Shown here one piece after another: positions 8,797 through 26,753 of a DNA stretch of 26,753 nucleotides. A program made the position numbers and the translations under genes. The first letter of the stretch is position 1. Each line of letters opens with the position of its first letter. This DNA is from a virus. The stretch spans positions 1 to 26,753 of the IMG/VR virus record IMGVR_UViG_3300014492_000028, one strand, 5' to 3'. Below the pieces are notes generated by a model. It had not been told where the DNA came from and searched no databases. It saw only the letters and a list, made by a program, of their open reading frames with translations.

Positions 8797-9255
8797 TTAC
8801 GTGGGACCAGCGCCATAGACGGGCGTGATCGAACCGTCGATAGCGATAGTGCAGCCGGACGCCATCAGCGCCTTGCCGATGCTCGCGTCAATCGGGAACT
8901 TGCTCAAGTACCCGTTGAACAGCAACTGACAGTTGTCGGTGCCGGACGCGAGCACGACTTTCCACTGCTGGAGCACGGGCGGCGCCGCGATGACCAGATT
9001 GAACAGGCCCTCGTCCTGCGTGCTGGACGGCTCGTAATACAGGTCGAACGTCATGTCGCCGGGGTTCAGCAGCGTGGCGAGTTTGCGGTGCGCCGTGCTG
9101 GTCTGGTTGGATACGTCGACGACATCAATCGCGATGCCGCCAAACTTGACGTTGCCGATACGTGCCTGAAGCACGTAAGTGGGAGGCGACGTTGGGCCGC
9201 CGAGATACAACTGGCTGTTGAAAGATGCGATTGCCGGAAGTGCTAATGAACTCAT
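8797..9255 (-). CDS. Major tail tube protein
   Basis: 152 residues, ATG 9255 with AGGAG 8 nt upstream. The pattern VDVSNQTSTAHRKLATLLNPGDMTFDLYYEP and later LFNGYLSKFPIDASIGKALM is that of lambda gpV-like/phi13-type tail tube proteins: a beta-barrel subunit with a long loop, whose second half holds a PIDASIGKA-like segment conserved in many tube proteins. It sits directly before the chaperones and tape measure, the canonical place for the tube gene. Size (150-200 aa) fits. Subunits should stack as hexamers around the tape measure. Confidence 0.9.
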   Translation of the reverse strand: MSSLALPAIASFNSQLYLGGPTSPPTYVLQARIGNVKFGGIAIDVVDVSNQTSTAHRKLATLLNPGDMTFDLYYEPSSTQDEGLFNLVIAAPPVLQQWKVVLASGTDNCQLLFNGYLSKFPIDASIGKALMASGCTIAIDGSITPVYGAGPT

Positions 9256-18151: not shown

Positions 18152-19171
18152 TCACTCCTCTTCGTCTTCAGAGCCGCTGGGTTTTCTGAAGTTCACGACG
18201 CATTGGCAGTTCGGGTGAGCCGTCGGCGCGTCATCACCGCTCGGGAAGTCATCGTCAATGTCGATCCATCCAGCCGCCTCGTTGTCTTCGCAGACTGGGC
18301 ACGGGTCGCCCGATTCGGTCTCCCAGGCGTGCTCATCGTAAAGCAGATCGAGTGCCGTCTCGCGCCGGCCAGCGTTGTATGCGTCGGCGGCCTCAGTTTG
18401 CGCAATCAACCCGGCGCGCGTCTCACTGAAGTCGTCGAACGTCTCAGTGATCGCTGACACGATGTCGTTGTAGCTGCCGCCCTTGTCCCACGCCGTCGCG
18501 ATGGAGTCCTGTAGCCGCTCGATACTGGTCTGATTCAAGCCTCCCGTGAGTTTCGTCAGGCTGTGCTTGCGCAAGTACTCCCCTGCCAGGTCCGCGCCGG
18601 TCGTGCCGCCGAGAGATTCCGCCGCCGCGGTAATCAGATCGGAGATGGCCGAATCGTACTCGCTGGTTTCGCCGGCGCTCGCGGAGAACGTCAGCGGGTG
18701 GAGCGATGTCGGCACCAGGGCGCGCGCGAAGGTCTTGCCGCCCTGCGAGGATTCTCGGAATTCCCGCCTGTCAGTGTAACCGCTGTGCGTAACATCGGGA
18801 CCGACAGGGGGAATTCCACGAGGGTTTTCGAGGCCCCCGCTCGCGCGATTCCCGATTTCCTCCCGTGCGCCGTGGCTGGCCATGTCACAGCCCTTTGGAC
18901 TCGACACGCCGGGTTGACTCCGGACGACTACGGACTCCATTATTGCACTCTTTGGCGGGTGCAAGATAAGCTGGCGCTTGATCTTCGGCTTTACCGCCGC
19001 CAGCGCCGTCTTGCGCTGCCGCTCGAAGTAGTGCGCGATCACGGCCTTGATGCGCTTGCGGGCCGGCGCGACATTCCGGGAGTGACGCGGGTGCTTCAGG
19101 CCCTTCGGAGCGGTCGCTTCGAGCAGCGCGGACAGGTCGTTCGCGGCGGATGTGATAGCGTGGAGGCTCAT
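18152..19171 (-). CDS. MuF-like minor head protein
   Basis: 339 residues from ATG 19171, which overlaps the KTSC gene stop as ATGA; a GTG at 19330 would run over that gene. The N-terminal ~100 residues are basic helix. The C-terminal domain starts near residue 245 with TRAGLIAQTEAADAYNAGRR, the MuF/SPP1 gp7 signature, followed by the metal-binding pattern C291-P-V-C294 ... H319-P-N-C322-x-C324 and an Asp/Glu tail. These proteins bind the portal and are packaged in small number; some eject with DNA (family knowledge). Only small genes separate it from the portal, as usual. Confidence 0.88.
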   Translation of the reverse strand: MSLHAITSAANDLSALLEATAPKGLKHPRHSRNVAPARKRIKAVIAHYFERQRKTALAAVKPKIKRQLILHPPKSAIMESVVVRSQPGVSSPKGCDMASHGAREEIGNRASGGLENPRGIPPVGPDVTHSGYTDRREFRESSQGGKTFARALVPTSLHPLTFSASAGETSEYDSAISDLITAAAESLGGTTGADLAGEYLRKHSLTKLTGGLNQTSIERLQDSIATAWDKGGSYNDIVSAITETFDDFSETRAGLIAQTEAADAYNAGRRETALDLLYDEHAWETESGDPCPVCEDNEAAGWIDIDDDFPSGDDAPTAHPNCQCVVNFRKPSGSEDEEE

Positions 19172-19638
19172 TTTCCCATCCGATGCACCGCGAACAGCGG
19201 CACGATGCGCCAATGCCTGGAGGGTCCGACCATCACCGGCTTGAAGTTCGTTCCGCATGCCGAGCACTCGAAGTGTTCGGCATTCGACGGCGCCCCACCG
19301 AAGAAACTCGTGAGTTGACGACGGCAGCACTTGTCCGCGTCCTCGTCGATCACGTTAAGCGGGCCGGGTGTCTCCACGGCCAGTGGAGCGGCCCGCTCTG
19401 GTTTGCTCTGGCTATCTTCCGCGTTACCTCCTTTCGTGATCAGAATTGCGGTGCATAAACCTAACCGCGGCAGCGTATGGCCCTTCGTCTCCGAGACGGA
19501 AAGAATGCACCATTCCGCAGCTGTGACGCTTGGATGCGCATATAGCGAGCCGTCCTTGTAGCGCACCAGCAGCACGCGTTCCTCTTCCAGGTACCCGATG
19601 GCCGCGATGTGCGAGGAGTCTACTGGTGTGAGTTTCAT
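19168..19638 (-). CDS. KTSC-domain protein with C-terminal cysteines
   Basis: 156 residues, ATG 19638 overlapping the previous stop as ATGA. The first ~48 residues follow the KTSC domain (VDSSHIAAIGYLEEERVLLV, then KDGSLYAHPSVTAAEW). The later part has CC104-105 and FECSACG (C125, C128), a possible zinc knuckle. KTSC domains are short beta-alpha modules often found in phage and RNA-associated proteins; their action is not established. Overlaps on both sides support expression in the portal operon. Confidence 0.75.
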   Translation of the reverse strand: MKLTPVDSSHIAAIGYLEEERVLLVRYKDGSLYAHPSVTAAEWCILSVSETKGHTLPRLGLCTAILITKGGNAEDSQSKPERAAPLAVETPGPLNVIDEDADKCCRRQLTSFFGGAPSNAEHFECSACGTNFKPVMVGPSRHWRIVPLFAVHRMGK

Positions 19639-20069
19639 ATGCGGGTGGCTCTGAAGAACGAACTGTAATTGCTCACGACCATCTTTTGGAACGCGTAGTT
19701 TTTGACCTTTCCGTCAATCACCTGTCCGACACCGCATGGCCCGACGAACCCACTGGGGGACTTGCCTCCGAACCAAGACACCTTGATGAACACTGCTCCG
19801 TTGTGAAATTGCGACTCCGTAACGATGCCAAGCAAGCTTCCGATTTCGTCGGTACCTTCAGGAGGGTACGTGGTCACTGTCGCGCCGAGCGCCGAGGTGG
19901 CCATAGTTTTCAGAGCCCCCTTGGAGTAACGACGTCCGCAGCTGTTCACGCTGCCGTCCGCTACTAGTATCCATTCGTTGACGCCGCCAGGACGACTTAT
20001 TTCCGCTATTGCCACTGCCGCGGTCGCAATCGCTCCGGCCGCGATCACTCCAAATGTTCGTCGTTTCAT
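19635..20069 (-). CDS. Exported/membrane protein with Tat-like N-terminus
   Basis: 144 residues from ATG 20069 with GGAG 9 nt upstream (an alternative ATG-like extension to 20111 has no site). It starts MKRRTFGVIAAGAIATAAV: twin arginines then a hydrophobic stretch of ~15 residues, i.e. a Tat-like signal or N-terminal anchor. The mature part contains VNSCGRRYSKGALKTMATSA, GIVTESQFHNGAVFIKVSW and GGKSPSGFVGPCGVGQ with two cysteines. No family recognised. Its ATGA overlap with the KTSC gene places it in the portal operon, where an exported product is unexpected. Confidence 0.65.
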   Translation of the reverse strand: MKRRTFGVIAAGAIATAAVAIAEISRPGGVNEWILVADGSVNSCGRRYSKGALKTMATSALGATVTTYPPEGTDEIGSLLGIVTESQFHNGAVFIKVSWFGGKSPSGFVGPCGVGQVIDGKVKNYAFQKMVVSNYSSFFRATRI

Positions 20070-20325: not shown

Positions 20326-22371
20326 CTAATCTCCGATGTGCGCTTCGATAGCGTTGGCCAGCCGCGCGAAAGCCTCTTTCACTTTCGGCGCGGGCGTCTG
20401 CTGGTTCTGGTTCTGAGTCGCCGTCGCCATCGTAGCTTGCACATCTGCCGGGGTCGGCTGCACTCCCGGAACGGGTGGGGTTTTCGGTATCGGAGGCGGC
20501 AGCACTTCCTTGGTGCGGTCGGGGTCGTACTTGTCTTTACCGGTTGACGGATACATTTTCTCGACGAGTTCCTCTGCATTTTCGATGCCCAGTTGCTGCA
20601 TCAGCCACAGCACGCCTGTCTTCTCGTCGACGCCGACAATCTGGCCGCCTTTATTGTCCAACGTCATGGCCTCGACCCCAGCCTTAACCAACGCAGCCAT
20701 GTCGCCCTCGCGAATGGCCGGGAAGTTTACGCGGACCTCGATGTCAGTCGCGGCCTTCTTGCTCGCCTCGCGGAATACCCAATGTCTCGCACCTGTCTGG
20801 GTGCTCTTGATCTGACGCGGCGCCGCTATGATGCGCACGTCGCCCGGGAGCGCGGCGGCCTCCCGCAGTTTGCCGCTGGGCGCCGTGAGCGAGCGCTTGA
20901 GCATGAAGCCCACAATGACTGTGAGATCCTCGATCCACTCTTCCTGGATGCTGAGGAACACCGTTTCGGTCGGCCGGTCTAAGCTCATTGCGGTCGCAAG
21001 GTTGCCGGTGCTGACGTCGCCGAGGAATGTTTCTGGCATCCCGACAGTCGCACAGCACATCAACACATACCGCCGCACGTCCTCGGGGCTGAATGTTGCA
21101 CCCTGAACCTTGAAGGCGTCCATCGACGTGCCGGGTCCGCTGACCCACGTGGCACCGGCTACCGCCGGCGGGTTCGTGTCGTAGATCGGACTGCCGGGTC
21201 CCACCTGCGTTTCCAGTTGTTGTTTAATTCCTTCAATGGCCTGCTGACCGCCTTTAGTCGAAATCTTCGTCGCGAACTGCGAGAGAGACTGCCGGACGGA
21301 CGCGCACGCCTCCAAAAATCGCCGAGATTCCTTGGCCCAGTCCACCATCGGATAGACTGGCGGGCAGCCGAAAAGCCACTTGCCTACCGTGCCGATTTTG
21401 CGATGGTACACCGGCGCGTCCCACATGACCGGGTACCCCTTGATGGATTCCGGTTTCACCGTCGGCTCGTAGTCGATGGCCGGGTACCACGCCTGCATGG
21501 TCGTGGTGGCCTGCGATGCACTCACAGCATCGTGCGCCCGCTGCGTCCAGATGCGCTGGTAGTACTGCGGCACGTCGGCGTCGTCTGGATCGGTCCAGAT
21601 GTCCTGAATCTCGGTCGCATCGATGGTGCGAATATCGCACTCGCCGGTGGCCTTGTCCGGGAAGAACACCCAGAACAGATTGCCGTCGGTGTCCTTCGAC
21701 CGCTGCTGCGCGGTGAGTGCCACGTGCCCCAGCACTTTCTGATTGCGACGGATGAAATCCTGAATCGCATCGTTCGCTGTCTCGTCGTCGGTGGTGACGT
21801 CGAAGCCGCGGGCGAACACGTACTCCGCGCGAACGTTCACCAGGCGCCGCACGATCGGATTTTTTATCCAGTACAGCCGGCAGATGAGAATAATCTGCTG
21901 AATCCCCCAGCGCGTGAACTCCAGCCACGAGTAGTTGATTTCCCGCTGCCAGTTCACGTTCTGCAGGAGCAACTCGTACATGCCGTAGGCGCCGAGCGGC
22001 GAGACGTCGCCCACCGGCCCGGCCTCTTTCAGTCCCAGCGATTCCGCCAAACGCACGGGCAGGCGCACGGTCGGGGCCGCGCCGCCAATCTCCGCGCCGA
22101 CTTGCCACGGGCCAGCGCCACACATCGCGTTGGCCTCGACGATCTCGGCAATGTAGCGCTGGTGCTGTTCAAATCGCTGCGCGTCACGGGCCTGCTTGTC
22201 GTCGGCAATGTCCACCAGGGCGCGGTTGATCTCGCGTTGATCCTGAAGCCGGCGGTGCTCGCGTTGCAGGTCGTTTTCGAGGTGCTTGGCTTCGGACAGT
22301 GCGGTCGCGATGATGGCGGTAGGCTTCGGCTTTCGGATGCGGTCGATCAGGCTGCGGAGTCGTGCTCTCAT
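20326..22371 (-). CDS. Portal protein
   Basis: 681 residues from ATG 22371. Residues ~25-85 form a charged helix (LENDLQREHRRLQDQREINR). The body reads as a siphovirus portal: IKNPIVRRLVNVRAEYVFARG near 170, DGNLFWVFFPD, an AWYPAIDYEPT segment and the late SPEDVRRYVLMCCATVGMPETFLGDVSTGN near 420, then AMSLDRPTETVFLSIQEEW. The C-terminal ~100 residues are Pro/Gln-rich. Such proteins form the 12-mer through which DNA enters. No clear ribosome site lies before the ATG; a weak TAAACT hexamer is 7 nt upstream. Length is high but within the range for portals with an extended N-terminus. Downstream genes match. Confidence 0.9.
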   Translation of the reverse strand: MRARLRSLIDRIRKPKPTAIIATALSEAKHLENDLQREHRRLQDQREINRALVDIADDKQARDAQRFEQHQRYIAEIVEANAMCGAGPWQVGAEIGGAAPTVRLPVRLAESLGLKEAGPVGDVSPLGAYGMYELLLQNVNWQREINYSWLEFTRWGIQQIILICRLYWIKNPIVRRLVNVRAEYVFARGFDVTTDDETANDAIQDFIRRNQKVLGHVALTAQQRSKDTDGNLFWVFFPDKATGECDIRTIDATEIQDIWTDPDDADVPQYYQRIWTQRAHDAVSASQATTTMQAWYPAIDYEPTVKPESIKGYPVMWDAPVYHRKIGTVGKWLFGCPPVYPMVDWAKESRRFLEACASVRQSLSQFATKISTKGGQQAIEGIKQQLETQVGPGSPIYDTNPPAVAGATWVSGPGTSMDAFKVQGATFSPEDVRRYVLMCCATVGMPETFLGDVSTGNLATAMSLDRPTETVFLSIQEEWIEDLTVIVGFMLKRSLTAPSGKLREAAALPGDVRIIAAPRQIKSTQTGARHWVFREASKKAATDIEVRVNFPAIREGDMAALVKAGVEAMTLDNKGGQIVGVDEKTGVLWLMQQLGIENAEELVEKMYPSTGKDKYDPDRTKEVLPPPIPKTPPVPGVQPTPADVQATMATATQNQNQQTPAPKVKEAFARLANAIEAHIGD

Positions 22372-22419: not shown

Positions 22420-23217
22420 TCATGGCAGTGGACTCCTCGTGTCTTTCCAGCACAGCAACTTCGCCGGGTCCCAGCAGAAGTCAAAGCCCGGCGGGTATTG
22501 GTCGTAGTGGACTCCCCAGCCTTTCGCGTGCTCCTCTGCGCAGCGCCGCGCGAGCCGGGTCTCGATCTTCGCCTTGGCCTGGGCCGGCGTGCGGAATGGG
22601 TAGTGCTTCATCACGAACTTCTGCGGATAGACGCGCATGCCGGGGAACGTGATCTCGTGGCCGCCGCCGGCGAGTTGCACGCGCCCGACATTCTTCCATA
22701 GCTTGCGGTTCGGGATTCGGCTGATGCAGTCGGCCTCGTCGTAATGCTGGAAAAAACTCTCCGGCGTCATACTGCCGACCCAGCCGAGATCGGCCCATGT
22801 GCGATCCACGCAGTAGAACTGGAACACGCGGAAGTCGATGGCGTTGAAGCCTGCCATTTCGACGCCGCATACGTGATCCACGAGACGATAATTCGGGTTG
22901 GGACTGCGCCGCCACTCATCCGCGTCGCTGTACATGCACCAATCGGCGTCGGAGTCCGCGGCCAGATCCTCGATGCGCTTGAGGATCGCAGTGCAGTTCT
23001 GGATTGGGTCGGGGCCGGACTCCGGAAAACTCTCGAAAGTCACGCCCTCGCCCAGTCCGCGATGTAGGACGGAGAAAGCGTGCTCGATCCCGAAACTGCC
23101 GTCCTTGCTCCACCCGTCGAGGACATGCACCGCGCAGCCCTGCTCCTGCAGATGGCGCAGCGTGTGCGGGAGGATGTCGGCTTCGTTGAACACGGGCATG
23201 TAGACTTGGATCTTCAT
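22420..23217 (-). CDS. Glycosyltransferase, GT-A fold, family 2-like
   Basis: 265 residues, ATG 23217 overlapping the preceding stop as ATGA. MKIQVYMPVFNEADILPHTL is the family 2 start; WCMYSDADEW at ~93-102 gives the D-x-D metal site; VLDGWSKDGS and, after ~184, GGHEITFPG...KHYPFRTPAQAKAKIETR match the HYPxR-x-x-Q end of the Glyco_tranf_2_4 type. Sugar donor and acceptor cannot be inferred. It is the last gene of the cassette, 48 bp before the portal. It is cytoplasmic by composition. Confidence 0.85.
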   Translation of the reverse strand: MKIQVYMPVFNEADILPHTLRHLQEQGCAVHVLDGWSKDGSFGIEHAFSVLHRGLGEGVTFESFPESGPDPIQNCTAILKRIEDLAADSDADWCMYSDADEWRRSPNPNYRLVDHVCGVEMAGFNAIDFRVFQFYCVDRTWADLGWVGSMTPESFFQHYDEADCISRIPNRKLWKNVGRVQLAGGGHEITFPGMRVYPQKFVMKHYPFRTPAQAKAKIETRLARRCAEEHAKGWGVHYDQYPPGFDFCWDPAKLLCWKDTRSPLP

Positions 23218-23429
23218 TCATTAACGACCTTGGCTGGCGATACGAACGCCGCAATAACTTCAAGCATTTTGACTAAATCGTCTTTCCGTGGATACGCCTG
23301 ATAATGAATCCTGACCACGTCCCCCACGCGCGCCTCAATGATGATGTCGCAACACTGCTCAGGGACGAGACCAGCCTTGTGAAGGGATTCCCAGAGATCT
23401 ACGCTAGGCACGACTGTCGTTTGCGTCAT
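23214..23429 (-). CDS. Unrecognised 71-aa protein in sugar-modification cassette
   Basis: ATG 23429 and stop 23214 both lie in ATGA overlaps with the flanking methyltransferase and glycosyltransferase genes, the main evidence that it is real. The sequence (MTQTTVVPSVDLWESLHKAG ... CCDIIIEARVGDVVRIHYQA) has an N-terminal helix, then a beta hairpin with a CC pair and a short C-terminal helix. Layout is like a small regulatory or carrier protein, but no family is recognised. Confidence 0.6.
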   Translation of the reverse strand: MTQTTVVPSVDLWESLHKAGLVPEQCCDIIIEARVGDVVRIHYQAYPRKDDLVKMLEVIAAFVSPAKVVNE

Positions 23430-24034
23430 GACTTCCTCTCCCAGTACCAGAACGGCCCCACGTGCTGCGCGTCGGGCAGTAGGTCGTGCACCGCCTCAAT
23501 CACGCCGAAGCACGGTGTCACGCCGTCGGCCTCGAATCGCTGCGTGTAATCGTCGCCGCAGAGAATCACCTTCGCCTTGTCCTGATAAAGTTCGATGTCG
23601 TGACGACAACCGGCGTAGCTGTGGTCGCCATCGAGATACACCAGATCGGCGAATGGTACCTCACCGATGACGAATCGCGAGTGGCCCTTGATCGGCGTGA
23701 TCTTGTGCCAGACGCCGCTTCGCATCACGTTGTCCCGGAACAGCGGGAAGAAGTCGCGCGGCAGGTCCCAACGTCGCAGCGTGCCGACCAGATTGTTTTC
23801 GCTCTCGTATGTGGCGCCCTCGAACCAGGTGTCGACGCAGTAGACTTGTTGGATAGACTCGAACTGAGCAAACCAAACCGCCGACAGCCCAAGGAAAGAG
23901 CCTACTTCAACGACCGACTTTATCTCGCGCTCGCAAATCAGGCGAGTCAGTGTCAGGCGGTTGGCTTGCGCGAACCATCCGGGAATTAGCGGACTGGCGA
24001 TATTTGGAAATACATTGAAGACCGTATTGATCAT
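23426..24034 (-). CDS. Class I SAM-dependent methyltransferase (Methyltransf_24-like)
   Basis: 202 residues, ATG 24034 in an ATGA overlap. Motif I is VVEVGSFLGLSAVWFAQ (E43-V-G-S-F-L-G), motif II acid D68 in VYCVDTWFEG, and LVYLDGDHSYAGCRHDIELY at ~132-150 followed by GDDY (160-163) matches the Methyltransf_24 group, which methylates sugars and small molecules. This family often sits next to glycosyltransferases in glycan modification loci (family knowledge). Target unknown; a sugar hydroxyl is a reasonable inference from its neighbours. Confidence 0.85.
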   Translation of the reverse strand: MINTVFNVFPNIASPLIPGWFAQANRLTLTRLICEREIKSVVEVGSFLGLSAVWFAQFESIQQVYCVDTWFEGATYESENNLVGTLRRWDLPRDFFPLFRDNVMRSGVWHKITPIKGHSRFVIGEVPFADLVYLDGDHSYAGCRHDIELYQDKAKVILCGDDYTQRFEADGVTPCFGVIEAVHDLLPDAQHVGPFWYWERKS

Positions 24035-24822
24035 TTGCGACTCTTTCCTGGTGCGAAGCCGTGCAATTCCGGCCAGTGGCCGTGCTTCTCCATGAACAGT
24101 TCCTCGTGCGCTCTGACGTCGTGCGGATGATCGGGATCGTGGCGGAACGTGGACTTTAGGCCGGTCGACTCCGGCAAGTGGTCGACCAGCACGCCGTCGT
24201 ACACACCGAGCTTAAGGCCCGCCTGGCGGATGCGCAGCGAGTAGTCGTCGTCTTCGAGTCCGTAGCCGCGGGCACCCGGTCCGCCAGCGTTGACGCTGAA
24301 TCGCTCATCGAGCAGCCCGACGCGGTCGATGGTTGACCGCGGGATGTAGACGCATGCGAACACGAGCATGACTTTTTCTTCGCGGATCTCGTCGCCGCCG
24401 CGGTTAACCAGGTTGATGGTGCCGACTGATCCGTGCGTGAATCCGGGACACATCGCGCCATAGCCGAATAAGTTACAGGCATCGCTGAGAGAGTTGAACC
24501 CGAGATACGTCTTCAGTAGTGCATCGTCATTAAGTAGCACGACGTCAGGCCCCGCATCTCGCCCGATAATGTAGTTCCATTTTTCGCGACTACCTGCGAA
24601 GTTGATCCCGATATTGACGTTTCGCGCGAAGATGAACGGCTTTGCGCCTTCGATCCGCTGACAGTTGTTTCGGTTTAGCCAGTCACGGCTACTGCCATCC
24701 CATTCTATGCCGTCGTCTACGACGATAACCACAGCCGTCTCGCCCATCTCGCGCAGAGTATCGACACACTTAGTCAAGTTGCCGATGTTCTTCGAGCAGA
24801 TCACGATAGAGTAGGGGTTCAC
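24031..24822 (-). CDS. Glycosyltransferase family 2-like with C-terminal galactosyltransferase-like block
   Basis: 263 residues from GTG 24822 in a GTGA overlap, with GGAGG 7 nt upstream; the ATG-like frame to 24918 runs over the previous gene. SIVICSKN and TAVVIVVDDG form the nucleotide-binding start, VVLLNDDALL (N98-D-D) the metal site, and YGLEDDDYSLRIRQAGLKLG (~187-206) the ED acid cluster seen in N-acetylgalactosaminyltransferase-type GT2 enzymes. Donor and acceptor unknown. Both flanks overlap neighbours, so it belongs to the cassette. Confidence 0.85.
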   Translation of the reverse strand: MNPYSIVICSKNIGNLTKCVDTLREMGETAVVIVVDDGIEWDGSSRDWLNRNNCQRIEGAKPFIFARNVNIGINFAGSREKWNYIIGRDAGPDVVLLNDDALLKTYLGFNSLSDACNLFGYGAMCPGFTHGSVGTINLVNRGGDEIREEKVMLVFACVYIPRSTIDRVGLLDERFSVNAGGPGARGYGLEDDDYSLRIRQAGLKLGVYDGVLVDHLPESTGLKSTFRHDPDHPHDVRAHEELFMEKHGHWPELHGFAPGKSRK

Positions 24823-25154
24823 TTCACCGCCTCCATCATCACTTCGCCAGAGACTACAAATTCTGCATTGACCATTAAAGGAGGGAAGGCCTTGATATCG
24901 AACCGTATCATGAAGCAACTCATGCGGTACCGGTACGTGGTTCCAGTGTCATCTGCGTTGCGCCAATACAGTACAGCAGACTGCTTCTTGGGAGGACAAT
25001 CCATAATCGTTGGGAGGTGGTCGAGTGGCTCAAACAGCTTTACCTTTGGGACTTCAATGAGCGATGCTTGAGCCTCGGGAACCGGCAGGCCGCCGATGAT
25101 CGGCACAACCGCCGCGCCAACTCCGAACAGTTGCAGCAAATCGCGCCGTTTCAT
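24819..25154 (-). CDS. Exported protein with Tat-type signal
   Basis: 111 residues from ATG 25154 in an ATGA overlap with the methyltransferase. MKRRDLLQLFGVGAAVVPII with AQA near residues 28-30 is a good twin-arginine signal (R-R-D-L-L) with signal peptidase I site. The mature ~80 residues: EVPKVKLFEPLDHLPTIMDC, then SAVLYWRNADDTGTTYRYRM and a short hydrophobic beta end. No domain recognised. A periplasmic protein inside a cytoplasmic glycan cassette suggests an envelope target, which is inference. Confidence 0.65.
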   Translation of the reverse strand: MKRRDLLQLFGVGAAVVPIIGGLPVPEAQASLIEVPKVKLFEPLDHLPTIMDCPPKKQSAVLYWRNADDTGTTYRYRMSCFMIRFDIKAFPPLMVNAEFVVSGEVMMEAVK

Positions 25155-25873
25155 TTCACCGCCTCCAGCCGCGCCGCGAACTTCCAAACCTCACAGCTCA
25201 CGCCACAGTACTGTGGAGCGTGTGCGCATGTGCTAGCCGCCATTTCGGTGTATTTCCGCTCTGTCACTCCGAGCACATTAAACCGCGCCGTGATGCCGTA
25301 CGCCGCGGCAAAGCGCTTGTGCGCCGGCGATCCGTCAGTGTAGTACTGGAGCGCGTTCGGCGTCCAAGATGACACGTGCTGTGGATCTTGGAAGTGTCCC
25401 GCGCCCTTCGCCGCGTCGGGGCACTCCATGGTCAGGGTGCCGCCGGGCTTGAGCACGCGCCACGACTCGTTCATGACGTGGATGCGGCCCGACCAGTGAC
25501 GCTCGTCGAATCCCCTGGCGCGGCCGGGCAGATACTCTCCGCGACGATCTTCCATGCACTGCCCGCACCACTGATCACCCGAATGCTGACAATCTCCAAT
25601 GTGCTCGAAGATGTCCGCGGCGTAGATCTCGTCCACGCTGGAGTCGTCCCAGGGCCACGGCAGCGCCAGGTCGGCTTGTTGGAATTTGTACGCGACCACG
25701 CTCTTGACAGTACCGAGGCAGCCCTTGCCGTCCGGTCCGCGGCGTGTCGGATCGACCTCGATCTGCGCTACCTTCGTGTCCCCGAACAGCACCGCCTCTT
25801 TGCCCAGCGCGATGTCCACGTTCAGCCACTCGCCGCCGCGCAAAGAATCACTACAGCCAAGGTTTAGCCTCAT
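25151..25873 (-). CDS. Class I SAM-dependent methyltransferase with cysteine insert
   Basis: 240 residues from ATG 25873 in an ATGA overlap; the longer frame to 26101 is a shadow of the next gene. MRLNLGCSDSLRGGEWLNVD is motif I with D20 binding ribose; IYAADIFEHI (~83-92) and WRVLKPGGTLTMECPDAAKG (~138-157) are Methyltransf_11 motifs. Between them lies a short Cys/His stretch, C95-x-H97 and C103-x-x-C106, possibly a zinc site, and TCAHAPQYCGVSC near 216-227 adds more. This is unusual for the fold. Target unknown. Confidence 0.83.
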   Translation of the reverse strand: MRLNLGCSDSLRGGEWLNVDIALGKEAVLFGDTKVAQIEVDPTRRGPDGKGCLGTVKSVVAYKFQQADLALPWPWDDSSVDEIYAADIFEHIGDCQHSGDQWCGQCMEDRRGEYLPGRARGFDERHWSGRIHVMNESWRVLKPGGTLTMECPDAAKGAGHFQDPQHVSSWTPNALQYYTDGSPAHKRFAAAYGITARFNVLGVTERKYTEMAASTCAHAPQYCGVSCEVWKFAARLEAVK

Positions 25874-26697
25874 AGACTGACCCTCTTTCCCATCACTCTC
25901 GTGCAGAAGACGTCGAATTCGTTCGCGCGGCGCCATACATCGCCGGCCAGCATCACCTCGCGGGGAATCTGCTCCGTGCCGCCTGCGTGCATCTGGCAGA
26001 CCATGCGCGGAGAGTCGTCGCGCGTGACAGCGGCAGGAGCCCAAGGCGCCTTTGGGATACTCGACACGCCCAGGCACTTCTTCGCGTTCTTCAGCCACCA
26101 ACGTTGGTCCTCATGCGGCGCGTCGTCGAACGGGCACGCCTCCCAGGATGCTCGCGTGTAGAGCATCGATGCTCCGGCACACCATCGCGGTTCGTGGTTG
26201 TGGTATATCCACGATTCTCCGAGGTTCTCGCAGTCGGGGGCGGGCGTTTGCCATTCGCCTTTGACATGCGCGTTGAAATGACGCGTGTCCCAGAAAAGCA
26301 ACTCGCGGTATCCGACGCACTGCTTGCCCGACGCTTGGAGTAGCGCGACCTGCTCTTCGAGCCGGCGGGAGTGAGACCAATCGTCCGAGTCGAAGTGCGC
26401 GATGAGATTGGCGTTAAAATGATCCACCGCGCACCAATTAGCAGCGTTACGCAGCGCGCCGATTGTGGCCCCGTTCATGTCAGGCATCCACACCGTGGTG
26501 ACGTTATATTCGCCGTAAGGAGTCCTCTTGACTGGCTCTTTGCCAGAGTCCAGGATTAGCAATAACTTGGCAACGTACGTCTGTGCTTTGTAGCTTGCGA
26601 TAGCGCGGTTCACCATTTCGGCACGACCGTTGACCAGCATCACGCAGCAGACTGTCGGACTCATTTGGAACTCCGGATATTCGTGCGCCTGGCTCAT
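25870..26697 (-). CDS. Glycosyltransferase family 2-like
   Basis: 275 residues from ATG 26697, placed in an ATGA overlap with the partial gene upstream; an ATG-like start at 26718 would add seven residues and overlap that gene more. VCCVMLVNGRAEMVNRAIAS is the family-2 start, LIAHFDSDDW (D103-S-D-D106) the metal site, and DDAPHEDQRWWLKN (~191-204) the ED acid for catalysis. Several cysteines and a MHAGGTEQIP end. The acceptor is unknown. Confidence 0.85.
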   Translation of the reverse strand: MSQAHEYPEFQMSPTVCCVMLVNGRAEMVNRAIASYKAQTYVAKLLLILDSGKEPVKRTPYGEYNVTTVWMPDMNGATIGALRNAANWCAVDHFNANLIAHFDSDDWSHSRRLEEQVALLQASGKQCVGYRELLFWDTRHFNAHVKGEWQTPAPDCENLGESWIYHNHEPRWCAGASMLYTRASWEACPFDDAPHEDQRWWLKNAKKCLGVSSIPKAPWAPAAVTRDDSPRMVCQMHAGGTEQIPREVMLAGDVWRRANEFDVFCTRVMGKRVSL

Positions 26698-26753
26698 TCG
26701 CCGCTCCTGATCTTCCACTCGATATAATCACTCGCCTGATTCCAGCCATTCAC
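26694..26753 (-). CDS. 3' end of another cassette gene (5' end outside window)
   Basis: On the minus strand the frame from the right edge reads VNGWNQASDYIEWKIRSGE and stops at TGA 26696-26694, overlapping the glycosyltransferase ATG as ATGA. Only 19 residues are visible, so family is unknown, but the overlap shows the cassette continues to the right. Confidence 0.55.
   Translation of the reverse strand: MNGWNQASDYIEWKIRSGE

Follow-up and report, generated by a model that had tools for sequence, protein, structure and literature searches.

The window, by which we mean the whole 26,753-base virus record analyzed here, contains on its minus strand an open reading frame (ORF) of 111 aa, P0001, that runs from 25154 to 24819 and whose reality was confirmed by translation. 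A sequence-only reading of this DNA had put the gene at 24819-25154, and these positions were found to be right. A stop interrupts the plus frame there, and the gene is read from the minus strand. The translation begins MKRRDLLQLFGVGAAVVPIIGGLPVPEAQA and continues with SLIEVPK. A start at TTG 25187 would give the longest ORF, and was dropped because homologues begin at a Met that matches the ATG at 25154. The methyltransferase-like ORF upstream ends within the ATGA that holds this ATG, the stop of P0001 shares GTGA with the GTG at 24822 of a downstream glycosyltransferase-like ORF, and the stretch GGAGGCGGTGAA is found before both starts. P0001 is translationally coupled within a methyltransferase/glycosyltransferase cassette, and the earlier description of a glycosyltransferase operon holds. 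The relevant genes, called with a simple longest-ORF rule and not with a gene finder, are listed below.

25870-26718, minus strand: glycosyltransferase family 2-like, cassette (PF00535 E 0.00015, just below cut-off)
25151-25873, minus strand: methyltransferase-like, upstream of P0001 (PF08241 E 0.0015, below cut-off)
24819-25154, minus strand: P0001, Tat-like leader protein (translation; ATGA/GTGA overlaps; Shine-Dalgarno-like GGAGG)
24031-24822, minus strand: glycosyltransferase-like, downstream of P0001, GTG start (weak PF02709/PF00535 and PHROG glycosyltransferase matches)
23426-24034, minus strand: methyltransferase, cassette (PF13578 E 8.9e-11)
22420-23217, minus strand: glycosyltransferase-like, cassette, adjoins the portal gene (PF13704 E 0.00033, below cut-off)
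20326-22371, minus strand: portal protein, marks the structural module (phrog_10963 E 4.8e-55)
19635-20069, minus strand: P0002, second Tat-like leader gene, 144 aa (translation)
8797-9255, minus strand: major tail protein, MTP (phrog_158 E 2.8e-8)

The methyltransferase and glycosyltransferase matches of the cassette range from weak to clear. The start of the gene at 25151-25873 is placed at the ATG of MRLNLGCS and its low end is exact, and the gene at 24031-24822 has homologues in related phages. Capsid, tape measure and major tail genes are found farther along the window, past the portal gene, and homologues of the window MTP were detected in 7 of the 8 records searched.

The second Tat-like gene, at 20069-19635, had also been noted before; it is present (MKRRTFGVIAAGAIATAAVAIAE), and its mature part is unlike that of P0001. 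P0002 is not matched by PF10518, has no convincing family match in Pfam, PHROG and further libraries, and showed neither a match to its own virion proteins nor an MTP segment; its only relative found is L009 (same contig as the P0001 copy L002, below), with 66 aa at 100%. Folded alone, it reached a pLDDT of 52, with no match below E 0.001 in a viral library and no PDB match with a Z of 5 or more. The idea that P0002 resembles the head maturation protease of this phage was rejected, as its alignment scores against four proteases were no better than those of shuffles. Directly downstream of P0002, at 19168-19638, is a KTSC-domain gene (PF13619 5.5e-7), homologues of which come after the portal gene in related phages.

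Leader, linker and cargo of P0001 and its homologues

Three parts were distinguished in P0001.

25065-25154, minus strand: leader, aa 1-30 (KRRDLLQ, an uncharged stretch, AQA before S; from sequence)
25029-25064, minus strand: conserved linker, aa 31-42, SLIEVPKVKLFE (L32-P36 and E42 invariant in three homologues)
24822-25028, minus strand: variable cargo, aa 43-111, of no known family (family, PDB, fold and relative comparisons)

The twin arginine within KRRDLLQ, R3-R4, is followed by an uncharged hydrophobic stretch, LLQLFGVGAAVVPIIGGLPVP, and by an AxA site after residue 30, so that P0001 has the elements of bacterial Tat substrates (PF10518) and the clear cleavage site reported earlier. 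The PF10518 (TAT_signal) profile gives P0001 13.4 bits, below the curated cut-off of 22.7, and we therefore refer to it as Tat-like and not as a confirmed Tat member; the signal predicted by the sequence-only reading is recognizable by eye and falls short of the profile. When a Tat-like rule was applied to all 807 possible starts in the window, 3 were found (2 genes), and residue shuffles under the same rule gave a mean of 1.7 and a maximum of 5. The leader of P0001 alone does not exceed chance; its conservation does, because R3, R4, the leader and the linker are kept in two diverged homologues over many synonymous changes. If the leader is functional, P0001 would work like a Tat substrate.

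The two diverged homologues are P0003 (118 aa), in a related phage (G001) whose portal is 68% identical to that of the window, where the gene is placed elsewhere in the same kind of cassette, and P0004 (131 aa), also beside a glycosyltransferase, in a phage (G007) that is otherwise unrelated to that of the window. A later comparison showed the MTPs of the window and of G007 to be distant homologues (25% identity). Invariant in the three proteins are the twin arginine, D5, L6, L7, F10, G13, A14, P18 and the LIEVP of the linker (motif LIEVP[KR][VI]), and only 35-38% of third codon positions agree; an AxA-like site is absent from P0003 under the rule of this analysis. Conservation ends near the linker. 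Residues 13-46 of P0001 and P0004 gave a z of 15.5 and the remainder a z of 1.0; for the leader/linker and cargo, the values were 10.9 and 0.3 in P0003/P0004, and 8.9 and a borderline 2.4 in P0001/P0003. The linker, which lies behind the predicted cleavage site, is thus better conserved than the cargo.

Closer copies of P0001 were found in two records. L002 carries a 100% copy, with the same DNA across 6,884 bp. In L003, from another metagenome, 77 of 77 residues are identical to P0001, with DNA differences in the matched stretch. Comparison of L003 (IMGVR_UViG_3300048809_000046) with window 24924-26753 showed 759 bp at 99.3% identity, comprising the end of the methyltransferase and part of the P0001 gene, with the neighboring glycosyltransferase only 55% identical as protein; this contrast is mosaic exchange within the cassette. 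When 16 window sequences were compared with locus L021 of G007 by tblastn, P0001 alone matched at E 0.01.

No P0001 copy was recognized in the other related phages whose cassette was read, other small genes filling the slots, and no relative of the family was found among 191 pattern matches in bacterial and archaeal genomes. Against isolated phages, P0001 gave one chance-level match (E 0.9) and P0003 none. Sugar genes surround all three members of the family, so a link to virion glycosylation is possible, and the gene directly downstream is glycosyltransferase-like in the window and in L021 and an epimerase in L004. We also noted a diverged second copy of the 23426-24034 methyltransferase in several relatives (L004 7374-7868, L006 7489-7989, L007 7451-7909 and L011 1746-2204), followed there by an epimerase gene that the window does not have; the slot between the two holds different small genes by phage.

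The cargo of P0001 itself matched nothing in sequence searches of Pfam, NCBIfam, PHROG and the PDB, nor did it match proteins of its own and related phages (best own-contig rank 24 of 34). The absence of a PHROG match extends to phrog_158 and P0001 is not placed among the major tail proteins; aligned with the MTP by hhalign, it gave a probability of 0.1% and showed no MTP-like segment. A resemblance to the MTPs of relatives was at best marginal (21 of 1000 shuffles) and was dropped. AlphaFold2 models of P0001 with its two homologues were unusable (pLDDT 37, pTM 0.23). As the window is a fragment, a virion partner of the P0001 cargo might lie outside it.

A class of short Tat-leader proteins in viral contigs

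Viral contigs were scanned with the motif MN[RS][RS]D[FL][FL]K, which misses P0001 and P0002 (both start MK); these were added by hand. The scan gave 59 stretches/ORFs that reduced to 50 distinct ORFs, with RR in 48 of the 50 although the DNA pattern also permitted Ser. Closed viral ORFs were nearly all short, 45 of 47 being at most 180 aa, with a median of 118. Genomes of bacteria and archaea, scanned for this DNA pattern, returned at least 118 stretches, 80 of which were used; among the matches listed, only 3 of 63 closed ORFs were at most 180 aa and the median ORF was 436 aa. The viral proteins are short in comparison to usual Tat substrates. The earlier statement that such signals are rare in phage genes needs revision, since one motif gave this many viral ORFs, nearly all of them short. 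Six ORFs of less than 60 aa were left out before alignment A3; L057, a HicA-like ORF without RR, was kept in A3 and is under the 65-aa limit of later sets.

Genes for phage DNA polymerase, portal, terminase and tail proteins are among the neighbors of the survey genes. As in the P0001 family, leaders were similar where cargo was not: z was 17.8 for the leader and 0.3 for the cargo in G023/G042, 13.5 and 0.4 in G030/G018, and 30.1 and 2.1 for the two genes of G018. The presence of two leaders in one phage is also not particular to the window, being seen in contigs G018, G028, G043 and G044. Those of G044 (L255; 884-1309 and 5740-6216, minus strand) are paralogous Tat-leader proteins, 32% identical over 101 residues.

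When six survey proteins were compared with isolated phages, five had no match, and no good isolate was found among the phages compared. The sixth gave a leader-level tblastn match (E 0.8) to Caulobacter phages. A similar leader is present in gp262 of Caulobacter phage Ccr10 (KY555142.1 176870-177490; L204 2501-3121), which is annotated as hypothetical and is a possible isolate.

Beyond the signal itself, the short proteins are mostly unnamed by Pfam or PHROG. That they form a class, in which a constant leader and linker are joined to variable and sometimes self-virion cargo, is well supported; for P0001, membership of the leader family alone is shown, and the class is a more interesting object than this gene alone. 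The constant module and the self-virion cargo go beyond what the sequence-only reading could see, and its overall interpretation is partly supported.

Cargo segments and the phages' own virion proteins

Cargos of 45 Tat-leader proteins were compared with the ORFs of their own contigs, and 8 had a match below E 1e-3, in comparison to 59 among 1,472 non-Tat ORFs with a length of 65-180 aa. In three of the 8, the partner was a second Tat gene on the contig or the immediately preceding gene. The other five were to PHROG-named major head (G018, G034, G048 and G020) or major tail (G007) proteins; weaker matches were seen in G040 (0.003) and G050 (0.03) to the head protein and in G001 (0.013) to the tail protein. 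Counted by best own-contig match, 8 of the 45 cargos point to a major head (6) or major tail (2) protein (E 2e-12 to 0.03). The remaining 37 had no match attributable to a major virion protein, and some of these contigs are fragments that may lack the partner.

A shuffle test of the 45 cargos against 10 major proteins found 11 of 450 pairs at a level of at most 2 in 1000, and of these 8 were with the phage's own protein, 3 with a homologue of it and none with the protein of an unrelated phage. The 10 proteins were mostly chosen after the hits, so the own matches are selected and the foreign pairs are the fair null. Among non-Tat ORFs of similar size in the same 8 contigs, which were likewise selected after the matches, 1 of 252 had its best own match there. 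Control partners were 250 aa or longer in 15 of 57 non-Tat matches, and annotation of 10 of these 15 yielded a single major head protein and a single tail protein, part of which was major-tail-like; any tail proteins among the other 42 partners, all shorter, would escape this count.

The matched head proteins (phrog_14242, phrog_9953 and phrog_283) were met at a segment that differs from phage to phage. G018 (42.9%) and G034 (31.8%) match the N-terminus, G048 the C-terminus (46.7% over 30) and G020 the middle (33% over 66), with 24-61 aligned residues in the head cases, the weak ones of G040 and G050 among them. These last two are doubtful, because their Tat proteins are homologous to each other and yet match different regions of the head protein. 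Throughout, third codon positions were scrambled and amino acids kept, and the cargo segments are therefore not fresh copies. In comparison to a phage major head protein, the cargo is a fragment only, carried on a Tat-like leader and encoded kilobases from the head gene of the same contig. In three of the four strongest head cases (G034, G048 and G020), the gene is not among the virion genes and forms a row with a PolA-type polymerase gene on the same strand, interrupted in G048 by one gene of 96 aa. Taking position as a proxy, placement in the replication module would suit a product made before the virion proteins.

Other cargo resemblances were noted in passing. The cargo of G045 (L249, 2309-2960) is similar to the C-terminal region of its immediate upstream neighbor (E 5e-7), which PHROG groups with FmdB-like regulators. 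Two more cargos are virion-like. At L053 13831-14214 (minus strand), the cargo matches a PHROG head scaffolding family (1.4e-5), and at L062 2009-2443 (minus strand), there is a weak match to PHROG tail collar proteins.

The tail-tube cases are the two homologues of P0001, and the feature of the window that corresponds to one of them is the following.

9058-9129, minus strand: MTP residues 43-66, look-alike of the P0003 segment (hhalign)

The hhalign alignment of the MTP with P0003 spans 24 columns at 50% identity (P 6.8e-6). In P0003, HDMVDVSNIHSAARR corresponds to IDMVDVSNQTSTAHR in its own MTP, and in P0004, IQDVTTHNSNGEWM corresponds to VQDVTTHSTSGNWM; in both, the shared MTP region is that of residues about 40-66. 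Neither P0003 nor P0004 matches the MTP that goes with the other, only its own or a related one, though the two MTPs are distant homologues (25%). Within the MTP set this region ranks with the best conserved (12 of 15 columns invariant from column 43), a level that one other stretch equals. P0003 and P0004 share this segment with phage MTPs (phrog_158) but carry a leader, and no full tail-tube fold was seen in them. In the JBD30 MTP, residues 42-62 are described as a hinge loop that joins discs (PMC11445458), and in DSR2 immunity, a tube loop of residues 35-55 is described as inserting into DSR2 (PMC11087589). By residue number, and not by structure, the segment of P0003 and P0004 would fall at the hinge-loop position.

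A possible role as bait for host factors

Bacterial immunity can be triggered by the capsid, as in the case of CapRel. We tentatively suggest, from sequence comparisons, that the cargo of these proteins is a bait for host factors that recognize virion proteins, and that the leader directs it to Tat or the inner membrane. The leader would take the protein to the Tat translocase or the inner membrane, the cargo would present a piece of a virion protein that is recognized by some host factor, and the bait would occupy that factor and may bring it to the membrane or, through Tat hitchhiking, a known phenomenon (PMC4273604), remove it from the cytoplasm. The likeliest targets would be defense sensors triggered by capsid or tail-tube protein. 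Pieces of head protein in the periplasm would make little sense as virion parts, and could make sense as a handle on a cytoplasmic factor. DSR2 and Lit are described as immunity triggered by virion proteins, and DSAD1, a phage inhibitor of DSR2, as competing with the tube for this host sensor (PMC11087589). DSAD1 is a precedent by description; the accessible part of that paper mentions no Tat leader. Counting against the bait are the cargos of P0001 and P0002, which have no virion match, the 37 of 45 cargos with no attributable match, the change of the matched segment from phage to phage, and the setting of the P0001-family genes, which is a sugar cassette (close to the portal in the window) and not a replication module.

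The main rival to the bait is rather unlikely in our estimate, and is a possible reading that is neither the only nor clearly the best one. It holds that the exported or anchored cargo acts in superinfection exclusion or as a dominant negative, binding sibling virions or subunits through a mimicked inter-subunit segment (the tail hinge loop or the capsid N-terminus) and blocking injection or assembly. The self-specific similarity of the cargo and the place of the MTP segment at the inter-disc hinge-loop position would both suit this, as does the sequence-only reading, which had proposed superinfection exclusion. There is a precedent by description in Tab, the tail assembly blocker, likewise a phage protein that acts on virion assembly, which is encoded by a prophage between terminase genes and is linked to the tape measure protein in the accessible part of PMC10884400. 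However, head protein normally does not reach the periplasm, the place expected of a Tat product, and an assembly blocker directed at self would harm its own phage unless timed.

That these genes are neutral or transient, formed by recombination of a common leader with gene fragments and mostly functionless, is unlikely, although the cargo is variable, the genes are lineage-specific and related phages have other small genes in these slots. Against this reading, protein sequence has been preserved over scrambled third positions in leader, linker and cargo segments, starts are coupled, and 5 of 45 cargos match a major head or tail protein below 1e-3, far above the control. An accessory role in the sugar cassette, where an anchored or exported protein would aid glycosylation or would itself be an acceptor resembling the tail tube, with the Ser/Thr-rich MTP-like segment as putative acceptor site, agrees with the sugar-gene setting of P0001, P0003 and P0004 alike; we consider it quite unlikely, as the head-protein cases are near DNA polymerase genes. 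Most doubtful of these alternatives is that the N-terminus is a membrane or binding module of another kind, in which RR occurs by coincidence. Although P0001 is below the PF10518 cut-off and many survey leaders lack an AxA site, several with short uncharged stretches, 32 of 46 members are matched by PF10518 with E values of 0.05 or less, the cut-off is exceeded by 14 of 45 records, and RR is near-universal where Ser was permitted.

The bait may also be thought of more broadly, as a general device in which a constant Tat leader carries pieces of the phage's own capsid or tube and is made ahead of the virion proteins. Immune sensors would hitchhike on such a bait, to or across the membrane, before the late proteins appear. 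As a general statement this is improbable at present.

In the open-access PMC literature, we found no description of a Tat-like leader joined to self-virion fragments. An anti-defense bait for a sensor of virion proteins would follow a known principle, and the new combination would be that of the Tat-like leader with the self fragments. Tat leaders in phages are not isolated curiosities and include a recognizable class of short ones. If the pattern holds, one leader presents changing cargo, some of it taken from the phage's own virion, at the host membrane or past it. Should the bait reading be true, the cargo segments would indicate which epitopes sensors read, and the small genes would allow this to be tested directly.
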